28,628 bases of DNA from a virus: IMG/VR virus record IMGVR_UViG_3300030419_001488, positions 1-28,628 of that record. One strand, given 5' to 3'. Made by a program: the position numbers and the translations under genes. This document shows positions 10,525-19,734 of this stretch, in pieces. The notes below the pieces were generated by a model. That model saw only the letters and a program-made list of their open reading frames with translations, did not search any database and had not been told where the DNA came from. Positions within the stretch are counted from its first letter, which is position 1. Each line of letters opens with the position of its first letter.

Positions 10525-10920
10525 ATGGTATGGCAACTATTGGCCAAGCCTTTATTAGGCGTGGTCGCAGACGGAGTGCAAGGCTTCGTTAAAACAAAAC
10601 AAGCGAAGGCTGAACTAAAGTTAACAGAAGTTAAAGCAGCAACTAAGTTAAAACAGGACCAGATCGCTGGAAAAGTGGCATGGGAAGCATCAGCTGTGGA
10701 TCAAATGAAAGGATCGTGGAAAGACGAACTAATTTTAATTTGTCTTTTGGCTCCAGCCGTAGCCGTATTCTGGCCTGGCATGACACCACATATTGAAGCA
10801 GGATTTATTGCCTTGCAACAACTGCCGGATTATTATAAACATTTATTATATATTGCATGCTCAGCGAGCTTTGGCATAAAGGGTGCTAAAGGTGCAATGG
10901 GTTTAATTAAGAAAAAGTAG
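10525..10920 (+). CDS. Candidate holin, 131 aa
   Basis: The N-terminus has a short hydrophobic helix (WQLLAKPLLGVVADGV, residues 3-18). A Lys/Ala-rich coiled region (23-60) follows, then two hydrophobic segments (LILICLLAPAVAVFW, about 69-83; HLLYIACSASFGIKGA, about 106-121) and a basic tail (KGAMGLIKKK). The motif 'SWKDEL...PAVAVFWPG...YYKHLLYIACSASFG' resembles small holin-like proteins seen in marine phages and the three-helix holin type linked to gene transfer agents. It would accumulate in the inner membrane and time lysis. No endolysin gene is seen beside it, which weakens the call. Ribosome site GGAGG lies at 10516-10520, inside the previous gene. Confidence 0.6.
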   Translation: MVWQLLAKPLLGVVADGVQGFVKTKQAKAELKLTEVKAATKLKQDQIAGKVAWEASAVDQMKGSWKDELILICLLAPAVAVFWPGMTPHIEAGFIALQQLPDYYKHLLYIACSASFGIKGAKGAMGLIKKK

Positions 10921-16531: not shown

Positions 16532-16549
16532 GTGGGGCTTCGGCCCCAC
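16532..16549 (+). terminator. UUCG-loop hairpin after the jelly-roll gene (GTGGGGC stem)
   Basis: GTGGGGC (16532-16538) pairs perfectly with GCCCCAC (16543-16549) around a TTCG loop, an extra-stable tetraloop. It is followed by AGTTCTTAATT, only a weak U-tract. It starts 11 bases after the stop codon. It could terminate partially; downstream genes continue in the same direction with no obvious new promoter. Confidence 0.6.
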
Positions 16550-16571: not shown

Positions 16572-16991
16572 ATGGCAGATACAGTAACAGGACCAACTAT
16601 CCTACAACAAAACGACAATCGCGTCGTAATCAAAATAGTTAATCAATCAGACGGAACAGGTGGAACAACAGTTTTTGGTGATGTCTCAGCACTTGCTGCT
16701 AGAGGAGACGGAACGGCTGTTGCACATTTAGGATTACTTAGAGTTTGGTATTCTTGTCAAGGCGGCGATGGAGGAGACTCTTACGCACGTTTAGATGAAG
16801 AAGATTCAGATGGAGATATTCCTATTATTGGTTTAACTGGTGCAGGCTATTGGGATTTTAGAGAGTTTGGAGGCATACCAGCAGACAAATCATCTAACAG
16901 TAATCAAAGTGATGTTAACTTTGTTGTGCCCGGCACTGCTGATGGCGGCAACATGTATACAGTTATAGCTGAATTTCAAAAAATTTATTAG
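16572..16991 (+). CDS. Small acidic beta-rich virion protein, 139 aa
   Basis: ATG 16572 follows AAGGAGGGAAC. The protein starts MADTVTGPTILQQNDNRVVI and is Asp/Gly-rich with predicted beta strands (RVVIKIVNQSDGTGGTTVFG; HLGLLRVWYSCQGGDGG; TGAGYWDFREFGG). No signal peptide, transmembrane or catalytic motif. Its place between the jelly-roll protein and the first adaptor suggests a head decoration or neck component, but I know of no assigned function. The gene is followed by a GAGG ribosome site for the next gene. Confidence 0.75.
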   Translation: MADTVTGPTILQQNDNRVVIKIVNQSDGTGGTTVFGDVSALAARGDGTAVAHLGLLRVWYSCQGGDGGDSYARLDEEDSDGDIPIIGLTGAGYWDFREFGGIPADKSSNSNQSDVNFVVPGTADGGNMYTVIAEFQKIY

Positions 16992-16999
16992 AGGTTTAA

Positions 17000-17749
17000 A
17001 TGGCTTATTCAGGCACACAAACCTTTAATCTTTCGATTGAGGAAATAATAGAAGAGGCATACGAGAGATGTCAATTAGAAACTCGTAGTGGTTATGATTT
17101 AAAAACTGCTAGACGATCTATGAATTTGATGTTGGCAGAGTGGGCAAATCGTGGTTTAAATTTATGGACCATAACGTATGGCACACAAACATTAACTGCT
17201 GGCACAAACTTTTATGCAATTGACCAAAAGGTTGTAGATATAATAGATGCTGTTGTAACAACTACAACAGGCGCAACTTCTAATTTAGAAGGTGATAGTG
17301 ACACTACAGATGTTACTATGAATAGAATATCTAGAACTGAATTTATAAATTTAAGTAAAAAAGAAAATTCATCAACAGGTGATGCAAGACCAACACAATT
17401 TGCTTTAGTTCCTGGAACGGTTACAACTGGTGGATCAACTACTAGTGGTAGACCAGCAAACGATATGACTTTGTTTTTATATCCTAGCCCAGACAAAGCA
17501 TATATTTTTAAATATTTTTATCTTGCTAGAATAGCAGATGCAGGAGATTATACAAATAATGCTGATGTGCCATTCTATTTTCTTCCTTGTTTAACTGCAG
17601 GATTAGCTTATTATATAAGTTTAAAAAGAGCACCAATGTTAAGTGCAAACTTAAAAGCGGTGTATGATGAAGAATTTAAACGTGCTTCTGAAAATGATAG
17701 AGAAAGAGTTTCTTTTAGAATTGAACCAGCACGGGCGTACACACCATAG
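17000..17749 (+). CDS. Head-to-tail adaptor (P22 gp4-like / connector type), 249 aa
   Basis: The N-terminus carries a helical signature typical of podovirus head-completion adaptors: IEEIIEEAYERCQLETRSGYDLKTARRS and MNLMLAEWANRGLNLWTI (residues 13-59). A beta-rich insert follows (NFYAIDQKVVDIIDAVV, then FLYPSPDKAYIFKYFYLARI, about 155-175), and then a final helix LPCLTAGLAYYISLKRAP. Such proteins bind below the portal and seal packaged DNA. ATG 17000 has GAGG at 16991-16994. The stop abuts a strong AGGAGG used by the cysteine-rich peptide gene. The assignment is by pattern recognition; the precise family (P22 gp4 or SU10-type) needs a profile search. Confidence 0.75.
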   Translation: MAYSGTQTFNLSIEEIIEEAYERCQLETRSGYDLKTARRSMNLMLAEWANRGLNLWTITYGTQTLTAGTNFYAIDQKVVDIIDAVVTTTTGATSNLEGDSDTTDVTMNRISRTEFINLSKKENSSTGDARPTQFALVPGTVTTGGSTTSGRPANDMTLFLYPSPDKAYIFKYFYLARIADAGDYTNNADVPFYFLPCLTAGLAYYISLKRAPMLSANLKAVYDEEFKRASENDRERVSFRIEPARAYTP

Positions 17750-17757
17750 GAGGTAAT

Positions 17758-17868
17758 ATGCCAATATGTAAACATTGTGATCATGAATGTCATTGTAGTA
17801 ATGGTGGTTCATGTTGCGGAGGACAGTGCCAATGTGGTAACTGTGAATGTAAAAAGGAGGACGAATGA
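17758..17868 (+). CDS. Metallothionein-like cysteine-rich peptide, 36 aa
   Basis: ATG 17758 follows AGGAGG at 17748-17753, and the TGA overlaps the next start (ATGA), so this is a well-formed operon member. The product has 10 cysteines in 36 residues (4, 7, 11, 13, 19, 20, 24, 26, 29, 31) and three histidines (6, 9, 12): CKHC, CHC, a CC pair, CQC and CEC with Gly/Ser spacers. C-x-C and C-x-x-C clusters with no aromatic residues and a Lys-rich end (KKEDE) match metallothionein composition. Zinc, copper or cadmium binding is therefore the best guess. Alternatives are a zinc- or iron-chelating peptide carried in the virion or a structural metal site partner. No function is shown by the sequence alone. 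Confidence 0.75.
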   Translation: MPICKHCDHECHCSNGGSCCGGQCQCGNCECKKEDE

Positions 17869-18107
17869 GCAATAAAAACTGGAACAGTCAAACTGCTAAC
17901 CCTATGGGTGGTGATAAAACTGGAATAAAATTTGGCAGAGGTCAGATAAATATTCCTGCCCCTGTAGAAGCTGCTGCTATAACTACAAAAGGTGTAGCAC
18001 CAGCAAAAGGTAAAGCACAAGATATTACTGTAGAAAAAGGAAAAGTATCTGGTACCATGCAAAGCATGGGTGCTGCCAAAAAAGGCGGCGGTTACACTTG
18101 GAGCTAA
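17865..18107 (+). CDS. Small unknown protein, 80 aa
   Basis: ATG 17865 overlaps the previous TGA by four bases (ATGA), after AAGGAGG at 17853-17859. The protein is Lys/Ala/Gly/Thr-rich, without hydrophobic segments, and ends MGAAKKGGGYTWS. The closing 'MGAA(T/K)KGG' pattern recurs in my memory of marine phage small proteins encoded before adaptor genes. Likely extended or disordered, possibly a virion component. No function assigned. Confidence 0.72.
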   Translation: MSNKNWNSQTANPMGGDKTGIKFGRGQINIPAPVEAAAITTKGVAPAKGKAQDITVEKGKVSGTMQSMGAAKKGGGYTWS

Positions 18108-18110
18108 TGA

Positions 18111-18605
18111 ATGGCTTACGCAACAGGTAAATACGCTAAATTTATTTCTGACCGTAGTGGTATGGAATATCCATACAAAGAAATGGTTGTAGAATGGAAT
18201 GGAGCACGTGTTCACAAAAGTGAGTTTGAACCTAAAACACCACAGGACAGACCAAACAAACACGCACCTGATGCGATAGCATTACAATTTCCAAGACCTG
18301 CAAGAGAAGAAAGTGTAACAGAAAGATTGTTACCTTTAAATCCATTTAGATTTACGGCCTCTAGTACAACAGTGACAGTATTTGAACCTACTCACAAAAG
18401 ATCTACAAGTGATACGGTCAGATTTAGAACTGTGTCTGGTAATTTATTTGGTGCATCAAAATCAGAAATAGAGGCAGAAGCTGGCTTTAGTATAACAAAA
18501 ACAAATGATGATTTTTATACATTTACTGTGTCAACAGCACCATCTATTACAGGAAATGGAGGAGGAGGACAAACGTCTTCTGGTCCAGCAACATTGAGTA
18601 ACTAA
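18111..18605 (+). CDS. Virion protein with N-terminal AYATGKYAKFISDRSG motif, 164 aa
   Basis: Starts at ATG 18111 four bases after the previous gene. The N-terminal 75 residues form a distinctive block, KYAKFISDRSGMEYPYKEMV and WNGARVHKSEFEPKTPQDRP. I recognise it from phage structural modules near neck genes, without a known function. Residues about 80-150 are a predicted small beta domain (FRFTASSTTVTVFEPTH, then FYTFTVSTAP), and the tail is Gly/Ser-rich. It could be a neck or tail-base protein. The stop overlaps the next ATG (TAATG). Confidence 0.75.
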   Translation: MAYATGKYAKFISDRSGMEYPYKEMVVEWNGARVHKSEFEPKTPQDRPNKHAPDAIALQFPRPAREESVTERLLPLNPFRFTASSTTVTVFEPTHKRSTSDTVRFRTVSGNLFGASKSEIEAEAGFSITKTNDDFYTFTVSTAPSITGNGGGGQTSSGPATLSN

Positions 18606-19303
18606 TGACTACATACGCAGAATTAACACAGCAAATATTAGACTACACAGAAGTTAGTACAGATGTATTAACATCTACGAGAACAAATGATTTTATTGAA
18701 CATGTAGAAAATAGGATACTAAAAGAAGCGGATTTAGATGCTTTTAAATCACATCAATCAGCTAACCTTGTTACCAGTAATCCATTTTTATCATTACCTG
18801 GTGGCACATCACCGGATCCAACATCATTAGCTACAATACGAACAGTTCACATATGGCCTGCTTCAGGCACACCAACGAGAGATTTTTTAGAACATCGTGA
18901 TCTTAGTTACATGAATGAATATTGGCCTGATAGAACTGCTACAGGCACACCAAGATATTGGTCATGGTGGGATCAAAACACAATATATCTTGCGCCTACG
19001 CCGGATTCGGCGTATAACGTGGAACTAGGAATTACTAGATTACCAACAAGACTATCTAGTTCTAACACAACCTCTTGGTTGGGTGACAATGCTCCAATGG
19101 CATTGCTTTATGGATGTCTTGCAGAAGCCTTTAAATTTTTAAAGGGACCAGCTGAAATGCTGCAATTATATGAACAATCTTATCAACGTGCTATACAAGA
19201 GCTTATAGTTGAACAAACTGGTAGACATAGACGAGATGAGTACATGCATGGAGAGCTTAAGTTCCCTATGCAATCTGTTAAAACAAATACTAGAGGAGAA
19301 TAA
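18605..19303 (+). CDS. Adaptor / connector protein, SU10-type, 232 aa
   Basis: The N-terminal helices TYAELTQQILDYTEVSTDVL and TNDFIEHVENRILKEADLDA (residues 2-45), then PTSLATIRTVHIWPASG, a central RDFLEHRDLSYMNEYWPD and WSWWDQNTIYLAPTPDSAYN region, and the C-terminal helices MALLYGCLAEAFKFLKGPAE and YEQSYQRAIQELIVEQTGRH match the layout of adaptor proteins that join portal to tail in SU10-like and related short-tailed phages. Coupled to the previous gene by TAATG. Together with the gene at 17000-17749 it suggests two stacked adaptor rings in the neck. Confidence 0.75.
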   Translation: MTTYAELTQQILDYTEVSTDVLTSTRTNDFIEHVENRILKEADLDAFKSHQSANLVTSNPFLSLPGGTSPDPTSLATIRTVHIWPASGTPTRDFLEHRDLSYMNEYWPDRTATGTPRYWSWWDQNTIYLAPTPDSAYNVELGITRLPTRLSSSNTTSWLGDNAPMALLYGCLAEAFKFLKGPAEMLQLYEQSYQRAIQELIVEQTGRHRRDEYMHGELKFPMQSVKTNTRGE

Positions 19304-19305
19304 AC

Positions 19306-19734
19306 ATGGCTATAACACAAGCTGTATGCACGAGTTTTAAACAAGAATTACTTGTTGAAGGACATAACTTTACCAATGGACAAGACACTTTTAAAATTGC
19401 ACTGTATACAAGTTCTGCCTCTCTAGATGCTTCAACCACTGCTTTTACCACATCTAACGAAGTTTCTGATTCAGGATCTTATTCGTCAGGTGGAGGATCA
19501 TTAACCAGTGTAACGCCAACAACTTCAGGTACTACTGCTATTTGTGATTTTGCTGATATATCTTTTACTTCAGCTACTATCACTGCAAGAGGAGCTATGA
19601 TTTACAATAGTTCTAATTCTAACAAAGCAGTTTGTATTTTAGATTTTGGTGGGGATAAAACATCTACGAGCGGAACATTTACAATTCAATTTCCAACAGC
19701 TGATGCAAGTAACGCTATATTGAGATTAGCATAG
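19306..19734 (+). CDS. Beta-rich tail/fibre-region protein, 142 aa
   Basis: ATG 19306 follows AGAGGAGAATAAAC. The protein carries a conserved-looking segment, FKQELLVEGHNFTNGQDTFK (residues 11-30), followed by IALYTSSASLDASTTAF, NEVSDSGSYSSGG and ITARGAMIYNSSNSNKAVCI. This layout is familiar in many tailed phage genomes next to fibre genes and is usually annotated only as a structural protein. Likely a small beta-sandwich subunit of the tail tip or fibre base. No catalytic motif. Confidence 0.75.
   Translation: MAITQAVCTSFKQELLVEGHNFTNGQDTFKIALYTSSASLDASTTAFTTSNEVSDSGSYSSGGGSLTSVTPTTSGTTAICDFADISFTSATITARGAMIYNSSNSNKAVCILDFGGDKTSTSGTFTIQFPTADASNAILRLA

Follow-up and report, generated by a model that had tools for sequence, protein, structure and literature searches.

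A metallothionein-like small gene between the adaptor genes of a pelagiphage-related virus and its relatives in other phages

Results

The MT-Like Gene and Its Operon

The window analysed here is the whole stretch of 28,628 nucleotides of the IMG/VR virus record IMGVR_UViG_3300030419_001488. As shown in Table 1, a short metallothionein (MT)-like gene lies in it between two genes for SU10-type adaptor proteins. Its predicted product, MPICKHCDHECHCSNGGSCCGGQCQCGNCECKKEDE, contains 10 Cys in 36 aa (28%), has no Phe, Trp or Tyr, and is nearly devoid of hydrophobic residues. Cys makes up 0.72% of the residues in 20 large ORFs of the window, and from this frequency the probability of finding at least 10 Cys in 36 residues is around 8e-14, or around 1.4e-8 when it is calculated from base composition; the Cys richness of the peptide is far from chance.

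The AGGAGG ribosome-binding site in front of the gene shares bases with the TAG stop of the upstream adaptor gene and is kept in nearly all relatives; at the other end, the TGA stop of the gene (17866-17868) and the ATG of the following ORF overlap as ATGA. The preliminary description of this locus, made from the sequence letters, had reported an ORF of 36 codons with 10 Cys, 3 His, an AGGAGG site and ATGA coupling, and it was exact in all of these points. Across relatives, a Lys-Glu pair near the C terminus of the peptide is invariant and always encoded by AAG GAG; as these codons hold the ribosome-binding site of the next gene (AAGGAGG), their invariance is no evidence on the peptide itself.

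Table 1. Features around the MT-like gene in the window.
Feature	Position	Strand	Remarks
Terminator-like hairpin	16532..16549	+	Consensus match only; upstream of gene block 16572-19734
SU10-type adaptor protein 1	17000..17749	+	Pfam PF24175 E=9.6e-8, phrog_12985; immediately upstream of the MT-like gene
AGGAGG ribosome-binding site of the MT-like gene	17747..17752	+	Overlaps TAG stop of adaptor gene 17000-17749
MT-like gene	17758..17868	+	36 codons, 10 Cys and 3 His
AAGGAGG in last MT-like codons and ATGA overlap	17852..17868	+	Ribosome-binding site and start of next ORF
80-aa protein, no assigned function	17865..18107	+	ATGA-coupled; no Cys or His
164-aa protein, phrog_28581	18111..18605	+	Next in operon
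SU10-type adaptor protein 2	18605..19303	+	PF24175 E=1.1e-23

The ORF for the 80-aa protein accompanies the MT-like gene throughout the window clade. No conserved Cys/His cluster was found in either adaptor, in the 80-aa protein or in the 164-aa protein, and neither an M15 peptidase nor any other obvious metalloenzyme is encoded adjacent to the MT-like gene in the window. The N-terminus of the 164-aa protein (ISDRSGMEYPYKEMVVEWNGARVHKSEFEPKTPQ) resembles phage zinc-ribbon-like proteins with CxxC pairs, but the Cys positions of such pairs are absent from this protein and its relatives. The hairpin, being a consensus match, would let a transcription unit start around position 16572, and to judge from its operon the MT-like gene is presumably expressed late. 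The terminase of the window phage shares 67% identity with its counterpart in Pelagibacter phage HTVC027P and 60% with the one in HTVC023P, so the phage is related to the HTVC023P-type pelagiphages; its host may be a bacterium such as SAR11.

Conservation and Selection in Close Relatives

Close relatives were collected through the neighbouring genes, independently of Cys content. The ORF was found at the same place in 102 of the 102 loci fetched in this way with an adaptor at least 80% identical, a count that includes three loci (L016, L036 and L094) overlooked by the automatic start finder, in which the ORF was confirmed, and that represents fewer independent contigs, as some were fetched twice. 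The ORF encodes 28-38 aa in these loci, and it is present in none of 11 distant relatives (0/11) with adaptors 31-36% identical.

Among 32 distinct proteins of the window clade, eight Cys are invariant in the pattern C-x2-C-x3-C-x-C...C-x-C-x2-C-x-C, with two additional residues in the last gap in one of them, and the same pattern is present in 26 diverse members, a set partly chosen by this pattern. The ratio dN/dS (NG86) was 0.157 for the 36-aa class (57 sequences) and 0.192 for the 29-aa class (30 sequences), these sets containing pattern-fetched loci in which Cys conservation is partly due to the way they were chosen, whereas the count of 102 loci is free of such bias. Cys codons exchange TGT and TGC freely across relatives. 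These data show that the MT-like ORF is a real gene under purifying selection, and the metallothionein-like gene of the preliminary description is thus backed by conserved Cys spacing and by dN/dS values of 0.16-0.19.

A Wider Superfamily in Other Phages

The superfamily outside the window clade was gathered with DNA patterns built on Cys, so its likeness is partly a product of how it was sampled, and the counts from the IMG/VR pattern scans are lower bounds. A scan for a ribosome-binding site plus 8 Cys produced at least 119 matches, mostly from the window clade; among the matches listed, L128, L221 and L225 lie in other phage contexts, and L133, L146, L150, L153, L177, L179, L188 and L222 were discarded as chance or low-complexity matches. 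C-H-C with C-x-C-x2-C-x-C after it at other spacings was the target of two more scans, which produced at least 120 matches each and together gave the strict motif in at least 123 distinct ORFs. These C-H-C scans made no demand for an N-terminal C-x2-C, which was found 3 residues before C-H-C in 116 of the 157 in-frame matches listed, an unasked recovery that strongly favours a shared family over chance. The MT-like ORFs of the different contexts may also descend from a common ancestor. The preliminary description had proposed a search for homologues, and homologues with conserved Cys are indeed present in other phages.

The IMG/VR pattern scans yielded at least 196 distinct related small MT-like ORFs, 28-70 aa in length and with 8-13 Cys, the gene being often uncalled. 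At least one aromatic residue is present in 73 of the at least 196 cores, in such a way that a low aromatic content holds for the window clade and partly for the wider superfamily. A tblastn search with the 36-aa peptide against named phages gave no match, low-complexity masking being the probable reason, and a match in HTVC033P was rejected: it lies at a DUF3310/metallophosphoesterase locus and is confined to the tail without Cys. In nine ORFs (L245, L247, L266, L295 and L349, as well as L260, L291, L302 and L343) additions suggest membrane anchoring, some having at the N terminus a helix that looks amphipathic and includes a basic stretch (FFGWLDSLSEKLNDVL...PKKR), and others a Trp-rich C-terminal tail (SWWQKYVDWLF).

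The arrangement of the window, with the MT-like gene after an adaptor gene, accounts for 67 of the at least 196 distinct proteins. Other members lie near genes for DNA polymerase (phrog_17), phrog_3704, phrog_20984, phrog_24646 or an M15 endolysin (phrog_894, at 3.5 kb or less from 18 of the at least 196), immediately precede a T7-like capsid gene, or are close to portal and phrog_2524 genes. Some are next to a ribonucleotide reductase (RNR) gene (phrog_367), and in six contigs (L355, L360, L386, L412, L454 and L461) they follow it at around 150 nt. In 34 contexts (L225, L233, L413 and others) the MT-like gene has nearby a gene for the 216-aa phrog_3704 protein, whose PHROGs label "ferredoxin" (moron category) looks doubtful.

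Members in Named Phages

The cultured Pelagibacter phage HTVC041P carries an unannotated MT-like ORF before its capsid gene, and relatives annotated as "hypothetical protein" are present in Gjalp EXVC020P (gp42) and Eyrgjafa EXVC018P, also in culture. The ORFs of these three phages share with the window peptide the 8-Cys pattern with C-H-C, but they belong to T7-like phages, lie before the capsid gene and have a C-terminal tail KDFWKxMS. In the T7-like HTVC025P and MedDCM-OCT-S30-C28 only the C-x-C-x2-C-x-C half is left, with the same C-terminal tail, and the retention of this tail in half-size forms suggests that it has a function of its own. The half-size ORFs L597:2249 (HTVC025P gp32) and L598:2252 combine CxCxxCxC with an EFWKIMS-type tail. 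The uncultured phage KM23-C739 also carries a relative, which annotated genes cover only in part.

HTVC023P, a further cultured pelagiphage, was found to carry an MT-like ORF at record positions 29080-29151 and on (E=1.2e-4), with a profile built without this phage; its M15 peptidase gene lies between capsid and adaptor genes, and the MT-like ORF is in the same block. By profile search, no member was detected in HTVC011P, HTVC019P, HTVC022P or HTVC027P, an absence that is not final because the profile also overlooked G1049 and G1050, contigs in which the 29-aa class is known to be present. That cultured SAR11 phages exist with no detectable member indicates that the MT-like gene is not needed for SAR11 infection.

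Comparison with Known Metallothioneins

Metallothioneins are well known in cells, and the window peptide shows sequence features of the class: small size, high Cys content, conserved C-x-C, C-C and C-x-x-C, and no aromatics. It had no match in Pfam or NCBIfam at E<=1 nor in PHROGs, and no homology to phage adaptor or neck families was found in PHROG or Pfam; with 26 diverse members no metallothionein model was matched at E<=0.1 (Pfam, NCBIfam), and family searches with diverse members gave nothing convincing. Against the PDB, the best matches of the clade profile were metallothioneins, with weak scores (Neurospora MT 1m0j, E=0.047; MT-1 1dft, 0.5; MT-2 2mrt, 1.6), and the wider profile A2 had no match. 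The Neurospora crassa protein (1m0j) and MT-1/MT-2 (1dft/2mrt) are likewise small with around 28% Cys, the window peptide being free of aromatics, and the phage pattern C-H-C-x5-C-C-x3-C-x-C-x2-C-x-C is similar to that of the MT beta-domain, C-x-C-x5-C-x-C-x3-C-x-C-x2-C-x-C. Compared with these fungal and vertebrate MTs, however, the phage peptide is phage-encoded and has in addition an N-terminal C-x2-C-x3 and a conserved His, and the weak PDB scores (E=0.047 and above) speak for resemblance or convergence rather than establish descent from them. Bacterial metallothioneins of the SmtA/BmtA type (Pfam Metallothio_Pro) have a C-x-C-x2-C-x-C motif and His ligands, general features that they have in common with the phage peptide, but their family profile is not matched by it, and its length leaves no room for the folded, zinc-finger-like part that SmtA has.

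Search in Cellular Genomes and Literature

The family profile had no match at E<=1e-3 in 1,046 bacterial genomes, of which 385 were alphaproteobacterial, 369 gammaproteobacterial and 292 cyanobacterial, whereas the same profile still found HTVC023P, a phage that it did not include. The cellular homologue expected of a host-derived auxiliary gene was thus not found in these 1,046 genomes, and the MT-like family appears to be phage-specific within the alphaproteobacteria, gammaproteobacteria and cyanobacteria sampled. The pattern matches listed from the genome_contigs set were rejected, as they consisted of low-complexity frames rich in poly-Cys or of a different kind of ORF from Streptomyces.

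In open-access PMC papers we found no description of a phage metallothionein, an earlier one elsewhere being possible; the word "metallothionein" in one phage paper refers to an entry in a table of bacterial genes (PMC3974807). A survey of auxiliary genes in HTVC023P-type phages applied cut-offs of E<1e-10 (PMC9599517). Genes of this kind are easily missed, because they encode 28-70 aa, are often uncalled, and such short peptides would hardly reach E<1e-10.

Discussion

The reading that we favour, with a probability of about one half, is that the gene encodes a phage-specific MT-like peptide that would bind Zn(II) or Cu(I) and buffer metal in the infected cell. After translation during infection, the 8-11 Cys and the conserved His of C-H-C would wrap a small metal-thiolate cluster, most likely of around 3-4 Zn(II) or else a Cu(I) cluster, as known metallothioneins suggest. 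In a host, for example SAR11, the peptide would then act as a soluble metal buffer, which may hold the zinc or copper freed by the breakdown of host proteins and may either pass it on to phage processes or withhold it from them. With no hydrophobic or aromatic core, the window peptide would have no folding route except around metal. A free metal buffer fits the data best, because the gene neighbours vary and those in the operon lack Cys/His clusters, and the many genomic contexts fit a trans-acting soluble peptide better than a component dedicated to a single neighbour in the virion. The membrane-like helices of some members count against a plain soluble buffer, which needs none. In infection by HTVC027P, a phage with no detectable member, host genes for iron uptake go up together with the regulators zur and irr (PMC12753301); pelagiphage infection does touch metal control, but no part of the peptide in this shift is implied. 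The published pelagiphage transcriptomes (PMC12753301) were consulted for the timing of the gene, but HTVC022P, like HTVC027P, has no detectable member.

It is rather unlikely that the peptide is instead a virion component, which would carry metal and be built into, or attached to, the neck or capsid, serving as a clip stabilised by metal or as metal cargo packaged in the particle. Such a role would possibly be best placed in the T7-like and adaptor contexts, where the gene directly precedes the capsid gene in T7-like pelagiphages, or lies between adaptor genes in translational coupling to the next ORF and with the 80-aa partner throughout the clade; other members are near portal genes. However, the 11 distant adaptor relatives without the gene indicate that the neck does not need the peptide. 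The preliminary description had argued from the position beside the adaptors that the peptide could load a virion metalloprotein or be packaged, an argument weakened by neighbours with no metal-ligand clusters and by relatives found elsewhere, for instance close to DNA polymerase genes or next to RNR genes.

Delivery of metal to a phage metalloenzyme, for instance an M15 zinc endopeptidase, would make the peptide a metallochaperone and not a general buffer, and the M15 endolysin genes near 18 members, together with the shared block in HTVC023P, are in its favour. We regard this as quite unlikely, since the window gene has no M15 or obvious metalloenzyme gene beside it, for most members no gene of this kind lies nearby, and the peptide shows no conserved docking region. 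Less credible still is that it strips metal from a metal-dependent host defence protein or regulator, or serves as a thiol/redox buffer rather than as a metal store. The patchy presence across phages suits an accessory, arms-race type of gene, but its retention in every close relative of the clade goes against fast turnover; and the many Cys would suit redox buffering, but their arrangement as CxC and CxxC, alongside a conserved His, is typical of metal ligation rather than of redox proteins. A spacer or leader ORF with no functional peptide, kept only for the ribosome-binding site of the 80-aa gene, would account for the invariant AAG-GAG and the ATGA coupling, but is extremely improbable given the 8 Cys codons kept with free TGT/TGC exchange, the dN/dS of 0.16-0.19, and the relatives elsewhere that are not upstream of the 80-aa gene.

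If the family binds metal, as the buffer reading supposes, trace metals would be handled directly by marine phages as they infect, which would connect viral lysis both with Zn/Cu cycling and with the debate over metals in virions. Viruses that abound in the ocean may possess a metallothionein of their own. More tentatively, one may picture virus-specific metallothioneins, with no known cellular ancestors, as common in abundant marine phages (pelagiphages and others) and as moving metal with infection, either as cargo carried or released beside virions, or as a buffer that reshapes Zn/Cu use in infected SAR11. As cultured carriers exist, the metallothionein question is testable now.

Two minor observations concern the family and its surroundings. 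In 41 of the at least 196 members (L239, L268, L385 and L591:19938 are examples) a second conserved C-terminal motif, VVDDTGECESCQ, NECEWCQ or EECLSCQ, follows the putative metal-binding core. The window also encodes, at 10525-10920, a small phrog_2524 protein that has hydrophobic segments and looks like a holin by eye; its relatives are encoded near MT-like genes in 25 further contexts.
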